From NCBI RefSeq assembly GCF_017888745.1, contig NZ_JAGHFM010000327.1, forward strand, positions 1-32,207: DNA of 32,207 nt, read 5' to 3'. This stretch comes from Terrisporobacter sp. GTDB taxonomy: Bacteria > Bacillota > Clostridia > Peptostreptococcales > Peptostreptococcaceae. This document shows, piece by piece, positions 7,185 through 25,901 of the stretch (positions within the stretch are counted from its first letter, which is position 1; each line of letters starts with the position of its first letter). Under the pieces are notes generated by a model, which did no database searches, was not told where the DNA came from, and saw only the letters and a list, made by a program, of their open reading frames with translations. Both the position numbers and the translations under genes were made by a program.

Positions 7185-7358
7185 AAGCCTAAGGTAGAGG
7201 TGCTGTACTTAAGAGTACTTACAGTGAGCTGACAAGCAATGATTTGTAAGGAAAGGAATTATGGCCGAAGTTAGTTTATAGGTATATAAATTAGCTGGAC
7301 TTATGCAGAATATGTATAAGGCTGTCACTTTAAAACAAAGTGTTGAGCTACAAGGTTT
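7185..7358 (+). ncRNA. lysine riboswitch (L-box)
   Basis: AAGGTAGAGGTGC, AAGGAAAGG, ATGGCCGAAG, AGCTGG, AAGGCTGTC conserved blocks in order; P1 AAGCCT/AGGTTT; directly upstream of aspartate kinase. Confidence 0.93.
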
Positions 7359-15645: not shown

Positions 15646-15680
15646 TTAAACATATTTAATTAAATACTATAAATTCTATG

Positions 15681-15900
15681 AAAAAGAAAAGTAACTTAAG
15701 GATGTTTTATAGAGAGTTGGGGATGGTGGAAGCCTGATGAATAGATTTAAGTGAATAGAGCTTTTGAGAAGATTTTGGGAAATTTAAGTATCTTAATCGG
15801 TGGCCTTGCCTTAAAAGGAAGAGTGAATAAGTTTAACTTATTAATTAGAGTGGTAACGCGGATAATATTCGTCTCTTGGTAATTCCAAGAGGCGTTTTTT
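15681..15900 (+). ncRNA. T-box leader, specifier read as AGA (Arg)
   Basis: AGAGAG, GGTGGAAGCC, UGAA-U-AGA-G (15752-15760), CTTTTGAG, AGAGTGGTAACGCGG T-box sequence, terminator CGTCTCTTGG/CCAAGAGGCG + T6 (15870-15900). Confidence 0.93.
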
Positions 15901-15942: not shown

Positions 15943-17145
15943 ATGAAAGAAAAAGTTATTTTAGCATACTCAGGAGGACTTGATACATCAATAATAATAC
16001 CATGGTTAAAAGAAAATTATGATATAGATGTAATAGCAGTTTGTGCAAATGTAGGTCAAGATGATGATATGGAACAAATACATGAAAAAGCAATAGCTAG
16101 TGGAGCTATAAAAGCATATTGTGAAGATTTAAAAGAAGAATTTATAACTACTACAATATATGCAGCAATAAAATCTGAAGCTAAATATGAAGGAAGATAT
16201 TTACTTGGAACTGCTCTTGCAAGACCTATAATAGCAAAGAAATTAGTTGATATAGCTCATAAAGAAGGTGCTAAATATATTTGTCATGGATGTACAGGAA
16301 AAGGAAATGATCAAGTAAGATTTGAAGGAACAATAGCTGCTTTAGATCCAGATATAAAAGTTATAGCTCCATGGAGAATGTGGGATATTAAATCAAGAGA
16401 AGATGCTATTGATTATGCTAATGAGCATAATATTCCAGTTGTAGCAACTAAGAAAAAAATATATTCAGTAGATGATAACTTATTCCATGTTTCTACTGAA
16501 GGTGGAGATATAGAATCTCTAGAAAATGAACATAAAAAAGATATTTACAAAAAAACTATGGATCCTTTAGATGCATGTAATACTCCAGAATATGTAAATA
16601 TTTACTTTGAGCAAGGAATACCTAAAAAAGTTAATGATGAAGAATTGTCACCTGTTGAGTTATTAGAAAAATTAGATAAATTGGGATGTAAACATGGTAT
16701 AGGTATAGTAGAAATATTAGAAAATAGACTAGTGGGAATGAAATCAAGAGGTATATATGAGACTCCAGGAGGGGAAATATTATATGCAGCTCATAATTTT
16801 TTAGAAAGTGCTACATTAGATAAAGATTCTCTTCATTTAAAACAAAAATTATCATTAGAATATGCTGATTTAATTTATAATGGTAAATGGTATTCAAAAG
16901 CATGTAAATCAATAAGTGCATTTATGGATGAAACTCAAAAAAATGTGACTGGTAGTGTTAAATTAAGATTATATAAAGGTAATATAAAGCCTGCTGGTAT
17001 ATTTACAGATAATGCCTTATACGATGAAAGTATCTCGTCATTTGGAGATAGCGAGTTATATGATCATAAGGATGCTGAAGGATTTATAAATTTATTTACT
17101 CTTCCATTAAAAATAAATGCAATGAAAGTAAATAAGTTAAAGTAA
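15943..17145 (+). CDS. argG: argininosuccinate synthase
   Basis: [37 protein letters not shown] motifs. Confidence 0.97.
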
Positions 17146-19856: not shown

Positions 19857-19885
19857 TTGACAAATAAAATAAAAATAAATATCAT
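19857..19885 (+). promoter_or_regulatory. sigma-A promoter of the argF T-box leader
   Basis: TTGACA (19857-19862), 17-nt spacer, TATCAT (19880-19885). Confidence 0.75.
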
Positions 19886-20105
19886 TAATAATAACTAGTT
19901 AATATATTAAATTCTATGATAAAGAGAGTAGGTTAAATTAAGTTTATAGAGAGCTGGGAATGGTGGAAGCCTGGTATCGAGATTTAAGCTGAAAAGAGCT
20001 TTGGAGAAGATTATTTGAAATTAAGTATGATAATCGGTTTTCCGCCTTAAGGATTTGAGTGGTTAAGATTATCTTAGCAATTAGAGTGGTAACACGGTAT
20101 ATATC

Positions 20106-20137
20106 GTCTCTTGGTTTTAAAACCAAGAGACTTTTTT
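20106..20137 (+). terminator. first T-box terminator of the argF leader
   Basis: GTCTCTTGGTTTT/AAAACCAAGAGAC perfect 13-bp palindrome + T6. Confidence 0.9.
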
Positions 20138-20184
20138 AATTGTGAAATTTAATTTTAGCAATTAGAGTGGTACCGCGAGTTTTC

Positions 20185-20215
20185 GCCTCTTAGTAATATT
20201 ACTAAGGGGCTTTTT
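20185..20215 (+). terminator. second T-box terminator of the argF leader
   Basis: GCCTCTTAGTAAT/ATTACTAAGGGGC + T5. Confidence 0.9.
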
Positions 20216-20246: not shown

Positions 20247-21269
20247 ATGAAAAAAATAAGTTTAAAGGGAAGAAGTTTTTTAACATTAAAGGATTTTACA
20301 AAAGACGAAATCAAATATCTTTTAGCATTGTCAAGTTATTTAAAAACGAAGAAGAAAGTAGGAATAAAGGGGAACTTGCTAGAAGGTAAAAATATCGTAT
20401 TAATATTTGAAAAAAACTCAACAAGAACAAGATGCTCTTTTGAAATTGCTGCAAATGATGAGGGAGCATATACTACATTTATAGGACCAGCAGATTCTCA
20501 TATAGGTAAAAAAGAGTCTATAGAAGACACAGCAAAAGTTTTAGGAAGATATTATGATGGTATAGAATTTAGAGGCTTTAAGCAAGAAACTGTTGAAATA
20601 TTAGCAAAATACTCGGGTGTTCCAGTATGGAATGGACTTACAGATACTTACCATCCAACACAAGTTTTAGCGGATTTACTTACAGTTACAGAATATGTAG
20701 ACAAATCTTTTGATAAAATAAAATTTGTATATGTAGGGGATGCAAGAAATAATATGGGAAATTCTCTTATGATAGGATGTGCTAAATTAGGTATAAACTT
20801 TGTTTCTTTAGCTCCAAAAGAATTATGGCCAGATAGAGAACTTTTAGATGAAATGGAAGAAGTAGCTAAAAAATCAAACGGTAGTATTACTTTAACAGAA
20901 AATATACATGATGTAAAAGGTGCAGATGTAATTTATACAGATGTATGGGTATCTATGGGTGAAGAAAATCAGTATGGAGAAAAAATTAAATTATTAAAAG
21001 ATTATCAAGTTAATATGGAAATGATAAAGAAAACAAAAAATGATGATGTGATTTTTTTACACTGCTTACCTTCATTTCACGATTTAAATACTAAAGTAGG
21101 TCAGGATATTTATGAAAAATTTGGATTAAAAGAACTTGAAGTTACAGATGAAGTATTTAGATCTAAATACTCAAAAGTATTTTATGAGGCTGAGAATAGA
21201 ATGCATTGTATTAAAGCTGTTATGGTAGCGACTTTAGTAGATGTTGATATGAGCGTAAAACATAATTAA
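20247..21269 (+). CDS. argF: ornithine carbamoyltransferase
   Basis: [34 protein letters not shown] motifs. Confidence 0.96.
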
Positions 21270-21758: not shown

Positions 21759-22916
21759 ATGTGTGTATTAGATAAAGTAAAGGGAAAAAAAATAAGAATA
21801 GTAGATACAACTCTTAGAGATGGAGAGCAAACAGCTGGTGTAGCTTTTGCAAATCAAGAAAAAATTGCTATAGCTGAGACTTTAAGCGATATGGGTATAG
21901 ATCAATTAGAAGTTGGAATTCCAACTATGGGTGGGGATGAAAAGGCTGCAATAAAATCCATATGCAAAAGAAATTTAAAATCTAGTATCATGGCATGGAA
22001 TAGGGCTGTGATAAAAGATATAGAAGAGTCTATAGACTGTGGAGTTGATGCAGTAGCCATATCTTTATCTGTTTCTGATATTCATATAGAGCATAAGTTA
22101 AAAAAATCTAGAGAATGGGTACTTGAGAATATGTATAACTCAGTAAGTTATGCTAAACGTAATGGATTATATGTATCTGTAAATGGAGAAGATGCATCTA
22201 GAGCAGATACAGACTTTTTAATAGAATTCATTAATATTGCAAAGGAAGCAGGAGCTGATAGATTTAGATATTGTGATACTGTTGGAGTAATGGAACCTTT
22301 TACTATTAGAAAAACTATTGAGAAATTATACAAGACAACAAATTTTGCTATAGAAATGCATACTCATAATGATTTTGGAATGGCGACTGCAAATGCAATT
22401 GCAGGAATTTTAGGTGGAGCAAACCATATAGGTGTCACAGTTAATGGATTAGGTGAAAGAGCAGGGAATGCAGCTCTTGAAGAAGTTATAATGTCTTTAA
22501 AATATGTTTATGGTTATGAAACTAATATAGATACAAGAATGTTTAGAGAAATATCTAAATATGTGTCACAAGCATCTGGAAGGGAATTACCATCATGGAA
22601 AGCTATTGTTGGGACAAATATGTTCAGACATGAGTCAGGAATTCATGCAGATGGAGCTATGAAGAATCCTAAAAATTATGAGGCCTTTGATCCTAGTGAA
22701 GTAGGTCTTGAAAGACAAATAGTAATAGGTAAACATTCTGGTAAAGCTGCTATAATAAATAAATTTAAAGAATATGGAATTGAGTTAAGTAATAAAGAAG
22801 CAGATGATATGCTCATATTAATAAGACAAACAGCAGTAAGTATGAAAAGAAATTTATTTGATAAGGAAATTGTATCAATATATAAAGATTTAAAAAATAA
22901 TAGAATATATCTATAA
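21759..22916 (+). CDS. homocitrate synthase/isopropylmalate synthase family; candidate Re-citrate synthase
   Basis: IRIVDTTLRDGEQTAGVAF, EMHTHNDFGMATANA, GLGERAGNAALEE, HESGIHADG motifs; followed by aconitase and IDH genes. Confidence 0.9.
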   Translation: MCVLDKVKGKKIRIVDTTLRDGEQTAGVAFANQEKIAIAETLSDMGIDQLEVGIPTMGGDEKAAIKSICKRNLKSSIMAWNRAVIKDIEESIDCGVDAVAISLSVSDIHIEHKLKKSREWVLENMYNSVSYAKRNGLYVSVNGEDASRADTDFLIEFINIAKEAGADRFRYCDTVGVMEPFTIRKTIEKLYKTTNFAIEMHTHNDFGMATANAIAGILGGANHIGVTVNGLGERAGNAALEEVIMSLKYVYGYETNIDTRMFREISKYVSQASGRELPSWKAIVGTNMFRHESGIHADGAMKNPKNYEAFDPSEVGLERQIVIGKHSGKAAIINKFKEYGIELSNKEADDMLILIRQTAVSMKRNLFDKEIVSIYKDLKNNRIYL

Positions 22917-22954
22917 AAATATAATAAACAGTAATAGTTAGGGGAGGAAAGTCA

Positions 22955-24916
22955 GTGGGAGAAAATTTAACATATAAAATATTAAAAAAACATTTAGTAA
23001 GTGGAGAATTGAAATCAGGCAATTTTATTTCTATAAAAATAGACCAAACACTTACTCAAGATTCAACAGGAACAATGGCATATTTACAGTTAGAAGCAAT
23101 GAATATAGATAAAGTAAATACAAAAAGAAGCATTGCATTTATAGATCATAATATGCTTCAACAAGGATTTGAGAATGCAGATGATCATAAATATATTCAA
23201 ACTGTTGCTAAGAAACATGGGATTTATTTTTCTAAACCAGGTAATGGAATATGTCATCAAGTATTCTTAGAACGATTTTCTACACCTGGAGACACTTTAC
23301 TAGGATCTGATAGCCATACACCAACAGCTGGTGCAGTAGGGATGATTGCTATTGGTGCAGGTGGATTAGATGTAGCTTTAGCTATGGCTGGTAATACTTA
23401 TAGTTTAAAATGCCCTAAAGTTGTAAAAGTAAATTTAACAGGCAAACTCGGGTATATGACATCTTCAAAAGATATAATTCTTGAAATCTTAAGAAAATGT
23501 AGTGTTAAAGGTGGAGTAGGAAAAGTATTTGAATATTGTGGGGAAGGTGTCAAAACATTGTCTGTACCACAAAGAGCTACTATAACTAATATGGGAGCTG
23601 AATTAGGAGCTACTACTTCAATTTTTCCAAGTGATGAAAATACATTAAAGTTTTTGAAAGCTCAAAATAGAGAGGATGAGTTCATAGAACTAAAAGCAGA
23701 TGATGATGCTATTTATGATGAAGAAATAAATATAAATTTAAATGAATTAGATCCATTAGCGGCTATGCCTCACTCTCCAGATAATGTGAAAAAGGTAACT
23801 GATATAGGAAAAATAAAAATCGACCAAGTTGCCATAGGAAGTTGTACAAATTCATCATATGAGGACTTGATGAAAGTTTCACAAATACTAAAAGGAAATA
23901 AGGTTCATGAAGATGTAAGTTTAGTAATAGCACCTGGTTCGAGACAAGTTATGGAAATGTTATCTAGAAATGGAGCCTTAGGAGATATAATAAGTTCAGG
24001 AGGTAGAATATTGGAAAATTCATGTGGACCATGTATAGGAATGGGGCAATCTCCTGGGACAAATAGTGTGTCTTTAAGAACATTTAATAGAAATTTTTAT
24101 GGAAGAAGCGGAACACTTACTGCTGATGTATATTTAGTGAGCCCTGAGGTTGCAGCTGTATCAGCTATAAAAGGAGAGTTAACAAATCCTAAAGAATTAG
24201 AAGTAAATTTTAATCAAATAGAAATAGATAGATTTATTATAGATGATTCTATGATAATTAAACCTGAAGAAGGTACCAATGAAGTTGAAGTAAAAAGAGG
24301 TCCAAACATAAAACCATTCCCTTTGAATACTCCTCTAGAAAATCAATTAACAGGAAAAGTAGTTTTAAAGGTTGGAGATAACATAACAACAGATCATATT
24401 ATGCCTTCAGATGCTAAGTTACTGCCATTTAGAAGTAACGTACCATATTTATCTGAATACTGTTTTAATACAATCGATAAAGATTTTCCATCTAGAGCTA
24501 AAATAAATCCAGGAGGATTTATAATTGGTGGAGAAAATTACGGTCAAGGATCATCAAGAGAACATGCAGCTTTAGCACCTTTATATCTAGGTATAAAAGC
24601 TGTTATTGTTAAAAGTTTTGCAAGAATTCACAAAGCTAATCTAATTAATAGTGGAATAATACCGATGGTTTTTTCAAATATAGAAGACTATGATGACATA
24701 TGCCTTATGGACGAATTAGAGATTGATGATTTAACTAAAGTTATTGAAAAAGGAACTATAAAAATAAAAAATATGACAAGACAAAAAGAATACGATATAA
24801 AAATTGAATTATCTGAAGATGAAATTGAAGTAATAAAGCATGGAGGTAAGTTAAATTATACTAAAGCAATTATTAATAAAAAGGAAAATTTAAATGAGGT
24901 GAGTATAAATGTATAA
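22955..24916 (+). CDS. aconitate hydratase (653 aa, swivel domain fused)
   Basis: DSHTPTAGAVGMIAIGAGG, IGSCTNSSYEDL, ENSCGPCIGMGQSPG, YGQGSSREHAAL; GTG start after ggggagg. Confidence 0.94.
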   Translation: MGENLTYKILKKHLVSGELKSGNFISIKIDQTLTQDSTGTMAYLQLEAMNIDKVNTKRSIAFIDHNMLQQGFENADDHKYIQTVAKKHGIYFSKPGNGICHQVFLERFSTPGDTLLGSDSHTPTAGAVGMIAIGAGGLDVALAMAGNTYSLKCPKVVKVNLTGKLGYMTSSKDIILEILRKCSVKGGVGKVFEYCGEGVKTLSVPQRATITNMGAELGATTSIFPSDENTLKFLKAQNREDEFIELKADDDAIYDEEININLNELDPLAAMPHSPDNVKKVTDIGKIKIDQVAIGSCTNSSYEDLMKVSQILKGNKVHEDVSLVIAPGSRQVMEMLSRNGALGDIISSGGRILENSCGPCIGMGQSPGTNSVSLRTFNRNFYGRSGTLTADVYLVSPEVAAVSAIKGELTNPKELEVNFNQIEIDRFIIDDSMIIKPEEGTNEVEVKRGPNIKPFPLNTPLENQLTGKVVLKVGDNITTDHIMPSDAKLLPFRSNVPYLSEYCFNTIDKDFPSRAKINPGGFIIGGENYGQGSSREHAALAPLYLGIKAVIVKSFARIHKANLINSGIIPMVFSNIEDYDDICLMDELEIDDLTKVIEKGTIKIKNMTRQKEYDIKIELSEDEIEVIKHGGKLNYTKAIINKKENLNEVSINV

Positions 24917-25901
24917 AATAACTCTAATACCGGGTGATGGAATAGGTCCAGAGGTGACAGAGGCTATGGTTAGAGTAGTAGAAGCATCTGGCATTAACAT
25001 AGAATGGGAAAGGATATATGCAGGAGAAAAAGTAATAGAAGAATATAATACACCAATTCCAAATTATGTAATAGACAGTATAAAGAAAAATAGAATTGCA
25101 ATTAAAGGACCAATTACAACTCCAATAGGTGAAGGTTTTAAAAGTGTAAATGTAACACTAAGACAAAATCTTGATCTATATGTAAATTTAAGACCAATAA
25201 AAAGCTTCAAAGGTATAAAATCAAAATATGAAGATGTAGACTTAGTAATTGTTAGAGAGAATACAGAAGATTTATATGCAGGAATAGAGCATAAAATAGG
25301 AGATTATGGAGCTGAAAGTATAAAATTAATTACTAAACCTGCTTGCGAAAGAATAATCAATTTTGCCTTTAATTATGCAAAAGAAAATAATAGAAATAAG
25401 GTTACAGGAGTACACAAGGCAAATATAATGAAGCTTAGTGATGGATTATTTTTAAATACATTTAAAGAAATTTCTAAATCTTTTAATGTAGAATCAGATG
25501 ATTTAATAGTAGATGCAGCAGCGATGAATCTTGTATTGAACCCAGAAAAGTACGATGTCATGGTTATGCCCAATTTATATGGAGATATATTATCTGATTT
25601 ATGCGCTGGACTTGTGGGAGGACTGGGAATAATACCAGGTGCAAATATTGGCAAAGAGTATGCAGTTTTTGAAGCAGTACACGGTAGTGCACCACAAATA
25701 GAAGGGAAAAATGTTGCTAATCCAACTGCACTAATACAATCAGCAATAATGATGTTAAGATATTTAGGAGAGCATAAATATGCTAGAAAAATAGAAAAGG
25801 CACTAGAAACGGTATTTATTAAAGGAGAAAAATTAACTGTAGATTTAGGTGGAAAAAGTAGTACTCAAGAGTTTACGGATGAAATTATAAAAAACTTATA
25901 A
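24909..25901 (+). CDS. NAD(P)-dependent isocitrate / isopropylmalate-family dehydrogenase
   Basis: LIPGDGIGPEV, VIVRENTEDLYAGIEH, MPNLYGDILSDL, EAVHGSAPQIEGKNVANP. Confidence 0.93.
   Translation: MYKITLIPGDGIGPEVTEAMVRVVEASGINIEWERIYAGEKVIEEYNTPIPNYVIDSIKKNRIAIKGPITTPIGEGFKSVNVTLRQNLDLYVNLRPIKSFKGIKSKYEDVDLVIVRENTEDLYAGIEHKIGDYGAESIKLITKPACERIINFAFNYAKENNRNKVTGVHKANIMKLSDGLFLNTFKEISKSFNVESDDLIVDAAAMNLVLNPEKYDVMVMPNLYGDILSDLCAGLVGGLGIIPGANIGKEYAVFEAVHGSAPQIEGKNVANPTALIQSAIMMLRYLGEHKYARKIEKALETVFIKGEKLTVDLGGKSSTQEFTDEIIKNL

Follow-up and report, generated by a model that had tools for sequence, protein, structure and literature searches.

T-boxes with duplicated terminator–antiterminator elements were reportedly described by Vitreschak et al. 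in 2008, in a study that is also said to have found the arginine T-box regulon expanded in Clostridium difficile, a species that we take to belong to the same bacterial group as the genome examined here. That study predates the 2019 finding that Stem III is part of the discriminator. Arrangements of this kind have one Stem I followed by two or more modules, as does the argF leader described below. They were named partially tandem T-boxes in a 2020 review, which stated their mode of action to be unknown (PMC7583486). Full tandem T-boxes, such as those of the trp operon and thrS/thrZ, likewise place serial T-box gates before one gene, but with a separate Stem I and specifier in every unit, whereas the argF leader repeats the output part only (PMC12452182, PMC2494555). 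Pseudo-cooperative tandem riboswitches resemble the argF leader in having two terminators in series that respond to one ligand, with a steeper response expected; they carry an aptamer for every gate, however, whereas in the argF leader one sensor would serve both (PMC9481103). A further dual-terminator likeness is found in the c-di-GMP riboswitch Bc1, where one aptamer is followed by two terminators 28 bp apart. In Bc1, T2 is folded even with ligand and the response is masked, whereas the second module at argF has a complete antiterminator and a ligand-contact motif of its own (PMC11218506).

We analysed a stretch of 32,207 nucleotides (the window), one contig of a 417-contig draft genome, for which an initial annotation had proposed one Stem I and two decision points before argF. 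A full-length T-box was recovered there with Rfam (RF00230, 123.4 bits, E = 3.6e-27, cut-off 93); this single match spans Stem I to module 1, and module 2 lies outside it (Table 1). The 18-mer TTAGCAATTAGAGTGGTA is present in two exact copies, 81 nt apart (20074–20091 and 20155–20172), at the annotated positions, and the 17 nt between the first T-run and the second copy leave no room for a second Stem I. At a permissive Rfam threshold, the module 2 region matched neither a second T-box nor any other credible family, and with one Rfam match across the leader there is no separate Stem I and specifier for each unit, as a full tandem T-box would have. A search for the two-core pattern gave one occurrence in the window and none in 100 shuffles, and a terminator consensus scan found exactly two terminators in the leader (0.1 ± 0.4 in shuffles), recovering both of the hairpins proposed earlier. 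UGGU and a strong hairpin are present in each module, as had been noted from the sequence; the bases after the first 18-mer read ACACGG, not AACACGG as annotated. In both modules the right-hand strand of A1 is also part of the terminator 5′ arm, which makes antiterminator and terminator mutually exclusive. The proposed arrangement of one codon-reading domain and two decision points before argF is upheld.

The specifier, an arginine codon, agrees with the pathway of the regulated gene, and its position also agrees in register with the specifier of B. subtilis glyQS. The same genome encodes a tRNA-Arg(UCU) with A73 that matches this codon; because its discriminator base is A, its ACCA end fits the UGGU bulge of both modules. 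ARAGORN labels the tRNA-Arg(UCU) gene tRNA-Pyl (CTA) at L231 and L246; its anticodon loop, CTTCTAA, corresponds to UCU. From these sequence features we consider it probable, jointly with the strand-exchange model set out below, that the argF leader is a transcriptional tRNA-Arg(UCU) T-box in which one sensor serves two output gates in series.

Table 1 Features of the argF leader and flanking sequence (positions in the window)
Feature	Position	Strand	Basis
Candidate sigma-A promoter, TTGACA-17-TATCAT	19857–19885	+	11/12 consensus positions; shuffles give equally many sites, weak alone
T-box leader (Stem I, Stem II, Stem III, antiterminator 1)	19907–20114	+	Rfam RF00230
Stem I apex, AGAGA 19948–19952 and GGUGGAA 19962–19968, two T-loops contacting the tRNA elbow	19948–19968	+	Rfam alignment; motif names from PMC7583486
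Specifier codon AGA (Arg), context GAA-A-AGA-G	19995–19997	+	Position in Rfam alignment
RRRxG purine string GAGUG 5′ of Stem III, single copy	20057–20061	+	Sequence; motif from PMC7583486
Stem III 5′ strand and loop, GUUAAGA-UUA, single copy, proposed to be shared	20062–20071	+	7 bp with 20072–20078, 10 bp with 20150–20159
Stem III 3′ strand UCUUAGC, copy 1, then AA	20072–20080	+	Sequence and pairing
Antiterminator 1: A1 AGAG 20083–20086/CUCU 20108–20111, bulge UGGUAAC 20087–20093, A2 ACGGU/AUCGU	20083–20111	+	−3.2 kcal/mol without tRNA; within Rfam match
Terminator 1: 11-bp hairpin 20106–20131 and U6 20132–20137; 5′ arm includes A1-right of antiterminator 1	20106–20137	+	−15.2 kcal/mol
Stem III 3′ strand, copy 2 (UAAUUUUAGC), then AA; own RRRxG and 5′ strand absent	20150–20161	+	10 bp with 20062–20071; complementarity conserved across loci
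Antiterminator 2: A1 AGAG 20164–20167/CUCU 20187–20190, bulge UGGUACC 20168–20174, A2 GCGA/UCGC	20164–20190	+	−4.6 kcal/mol without tRNA
Terminator 2: 11-bp hairpin 20185–20210 and U5 20211–20215; 5′ arm includes A1-right of antiterminator 2	20185–20215	+	−15.1 kcal/mol; covariation
argF, ornithine carbamoyltransferase, 340 aa, controlled gene	20247–21269	+	NCBIfam NF003286 and TIGR00658 above cut-off

Among 71 genomes of the family, 18 had the two-core pattern with a spacing too tight for a second Stem I, as had 10 of 391 genomes of the class; a reversed control pattern had no match in these same genomes. Scanning one genome per species yielded at least 115 stretches with the pattern, part of which were verified; among the matches listed were Clostridium, Veillonella, Dialister, Alicyclobacillus, Paenibacillus, Lysinibacillus, Gemella, Desulfoscipio, Pyramidobacter, Chloroflexi and others. 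T-box matches above the Rfam cut-off were obtained at 13 of 18 checked loci. At least 124 distinct groups of two or more modules were found and scored, seven of them with three modules, in Bacillota and beyond; none of the 124 loci had a Stem I motif between modules. Core-to-core spacing ranged from 68 to 159 nt, on the basis of which we rejected a strict inter-module spacing. Within the genome of the window, three of five Arg(AGA) T-boxes are doubled, as are none of the other T-boxes in which the core was found. This wide occurrence, together with the published mentions, makes the partially tandem T-box a known and widespread kind, and the partial duplication is not the novelty that it had been taken for.

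Three-module T-boxes after one Stem I were seen at L088, L104, L140, L149, L162, L169 and L071; those of Paenibacillus and Lysinibacillus have a Phe (TTC) specifier and lie upstream of a sodium-dependent transporter-like gene. Alicyclobacillus fastidiosus has, at L083, two full T-boxes in tandem with an extra module after the second, and two further full T-boxes nearby on the opposite strand.

Three genomes of the genus (G000, G002 and G004) have a two-module leader before argF, as have at least two other genera; single-module argF leaders are found in other relatives, one of the same genus included. Because the modules differ in sequence and argF has the same two-module order upstream of it in two further genomes of the genus as well as in other genera, the 81-nt duplication is not an assembly artefact, the error that the initial annotation had allowed for. 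The second module is therefore old but losable, and the single-module argF leaders of close relatives indicate that the second gate is dispensable. Among 35 two-module Arg T-boxes, CUCUUGG is typical of module 1 (26/35) and CUCUUAG of module 2 (26/35), a split that marks the modules as distinct lineages rather than fresh copies. Covariation was evident in the terminator of module 2: across 32 sequences, 43 cells had changed on both sides, compared with 10.9 after shuffling and with register shifts that came nowhere near, and five pairs had changed on both sides. In the module 2 antiterminator, 98.4% of cells were paired among 32 homologues. Of the 124 two-module loci, 99% had an antiterminator in module 2, 95% had a terminator there and 90% had the mutually exclusive layout of the two, a layout seen in 0 of 620 shuffles. 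Together with the old divergence of the two modules, this covariation and retention bear out the earlier suggestion that both are maintained. Conservation of the T-box core was left out of the evidence because the loci had been found by the core pattern. The variable base of UGGN is the same in both modules at 120 of 124 loci, which fits shared tRNA reading, a weak concordance because the base is mostly U and the loci are related. In G002 and G004, argF itself is broken and the two-module leader is kept (L264 and L265): about 78 codons remain in one gene and stops interrupt the other. The Stem III 5′ strand is deleted from the argF leader of G004.

Stem III and its flanks (5′-RRRxG-Stem III-AA-3′) belong to the sensor of the tRNA 3′ end, and an antiterminator without Stem III shows no appreciable tRNA binding (PMC7583486). 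In the window, the first bases of the 18-mer are part of the Stem III 3′ strand, a feature that the initial annotation had passed over, and either copy can pair with the one 5′ strand present; module 2 lacks an RRRxG, a Stem III 5′ strand and a Stem III hairpin of its own. The duplicated segment extends from the 3′ strand of Stem III through the terminator, and Stem I, Stem II, RRRxG and the Stem III 5′ strand are single. We carried the comparison to 96 non-redundant loci, locating Stem III by anchoring on AA and RRRxG, and scored complementarity at the 55 non-redundant loci with a clear RRRxG-Stem III-AA before module 1. With this detector, the canonical RRRxG-Stem III-AA was found before module 1 at 53 of the 96 loci but before module 2 at only 7. 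A Stem III hairpin belonging to module 2 was not enriched (32% versus 46% in shuffles). The six bases before the module 2 flank were fully complementary (6/6) to the upstream Stem III 5′ strand at 40 of 55 loci; 5,000 permutations, which keep composition and do not keep relatedness, gave on average 7.1 such loci of 55 and never more than 15. Shifting the register by 1–5 bases left 0–2 of the 55 loci fully complementary. The AA flank of the strand copy was kept at 52 of 55 loci, and 6/6 complementarity held both within the family (25/30) and outside it (15/25), each count exceeding all 5,000 permutations. About a quarter of the loci with a clear Stem III were without perfect complementarity, mainly in Clostridium, Chloroflexi and a few others, and lineages without the strand copy may work another way.

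The boundary of the repeat was also visible in the identity between modules 1 and 2 across the 96 loci. Upstream of helix A1, positions −40 to about −12 showed background identity; the value jumped exactly at the Stem III 3′ strand (0.64–0.71 at −9 to −5, compared with 0.36–0.47 when permuted) and was also high in the AA flank. Of the 74 differences between the two 3′ strands, 63 face a G or U, with which a wobble can maintain pairing (p ~2e-6), a pattern that could partly reflect constraint on module 1. Complementarity reaches into the Stem III loop beyond the permutation expectation. Counted without interruption, the exchanged helix exceeds the local one in length at 33 loci and falls short of it at 16. 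Both copies 2 and 3 were 6/6 complementary in three of the five three-module loci examined (L088, L140 and L169, not L071 or L104). We conclude that extra modules mostly have no Stem III of their own but carry a copy of its 3′ strand with the AA flank. We found no earlier description of this strand copy, although the 2008 study or subscription literature may hold one. An interspersed repeat, GTTGGCGAYATGAGC..AGYGAA, with about 45 copies in the genome, is inserted in the Stem III region of several T-boxes (L018, L014 and L258–L262) and greatly enlarges that region.

With antiterminator 2 imposed, the minimum-energy fold of the window pairs 20062–20071 with 20150–20159, an exchanged Stem III of 10 bp compared with 7 bp for the local one. 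The exchanged state is 4.6 kcal/mol better than local Stem III with antiterminator 2, a gain that is due in part to a further helix in the loop and is given by energies that omit tRNA, tertiary contacts and timing. We think it probable that the shared Stem III 5′ strand re-pairs from module 1 to module 2 and that the same Stem I-held tRNA is read again, a hand-over that the initial annotation had raised as one possibility. Module 1 would act as usual: the uncharged tRNA held by Stem I would put its ACCA end in the UGGU bulge, and Stem III and the purine string would lock antiterminator 1, so that terminator 1 is blocked. At that time, with polymerase at terminator 1, the second 3′-strand copy would still be unmade. 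Once polymerase had passed, terminator 1 could fold harmlessly, taking a strand of antiterminator 1, and the newly made second copy would invade from the Stem III loop and pair with the single 5′ strand. This pairing would rebuild RRRxG-Stem III-AA beside antiterminator 2 and loop out module 1 and terminator 1, and the same Stem I-bound tRNA would be tested again, at terminator 2. Leakage would multiply down across the serial gates, and a tRNA lost, replaced or charged between them would lead transcription to stop; the uncharged state would be needed at two times. The bound complex of tRNA and antiterminator 1 may, however, be too stable to release in the time available. What the sequences show is the two gates, their pairing and conservation and the complementarity of the shared strand; exchange over time, hand-over of one tRNA and the consequences for leakiness and steepness are inferred from them.

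An arrangement in which the gates act independently, module 2 being read by another tRNA in trans or its antiterminator forming without Stem III, would suit the retention of UGGU and the antiterminator in module 2, and the 68–159 nt spacing, which implies no strict geometry. We regard it as unlikely: an antiterminator alone, lacking Stem III, does not bind tRNA appreciably (PMC7583486), and a Stem III strand copied in exact register is left unexplained. It is doubtful that module 2 is a back-up terminator that cuts basal leakage, with an antiterminator that forms once module 1 is passed and does little further tRNA sensing. Terminator 2 is as strong as terminator 1, and a second terminator may dominate, given that in the c-di-GMP riboswitch it hid the response of the first (PMC11218506); but a back-up terminator needs no UGGU bulge, covarying antiterminator helix or Stem III strand, all of which are kept.

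Some relatives have a single module, and direct repeats are easily deleted; both points would suit an account in which module 2 and its Stem III strand are the decaying leftover of a duplication that started inside Stem III by chance. Set against this are the status of the modules as old distinct lineages with pairing kept by covariation, the decay to background of sequence outside the functional parts, and the strand complementarity, which together make a decaying leftover very unlikely. The unconstrained fold of the window pairs the first bulge region with the second, and the bulges GGUAAC and GGUACC, or other pairings between modules, might form a repressive structure, the duplication mainly strengthening the off state. 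GGUACC is nearly palindromic in all T-boxes, however, so such pairing is expected by chance, and we give this account next to no weight.

Returning to re-pairing of the shared strand, its extension to partially tandem T-boxes in general seems to us somewhat better than an even prospect: every extra module would have only the 3′ strand of Stem III, a single 5′ strand and purine string would move along, and one Stem I-bound tRNA would be read two or three times. If this is true, RNA would have a general means of reading out one bound ligand repeatedly and at separate times, with nascent RNA shifting one sensor between successive decisions by strand exchange. The shared strand offers a concrete and testable answer to which bases pair, in what order, and which compensatory mutants rescue. 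Repeated checking of this kind could steepen the response and make a genetic switch sharper, and it could be imitated by designers of RNA devices.

Other elements of the window lie on either side of the argF leader. Another Arg(AGA) T-box (15669–15879), upstream of argG (argininosuccinate synthase, 15943–17145), has only one module. A lysine riboswitch (Rfam RF00168, 110 bits) at 7187–7358 is followed on its 3′ side by an aspartate kinase-like gene (7432) and a diaminopimelate decarboxylase-like gene (8606), both named from sequence only. After argF, at 21759–25901, come genes for a homocitrate synthase-like protein, an aconitase and an isocitrate dehydrogenase-like protein, which may provide a route to 2-oxoglutarate.
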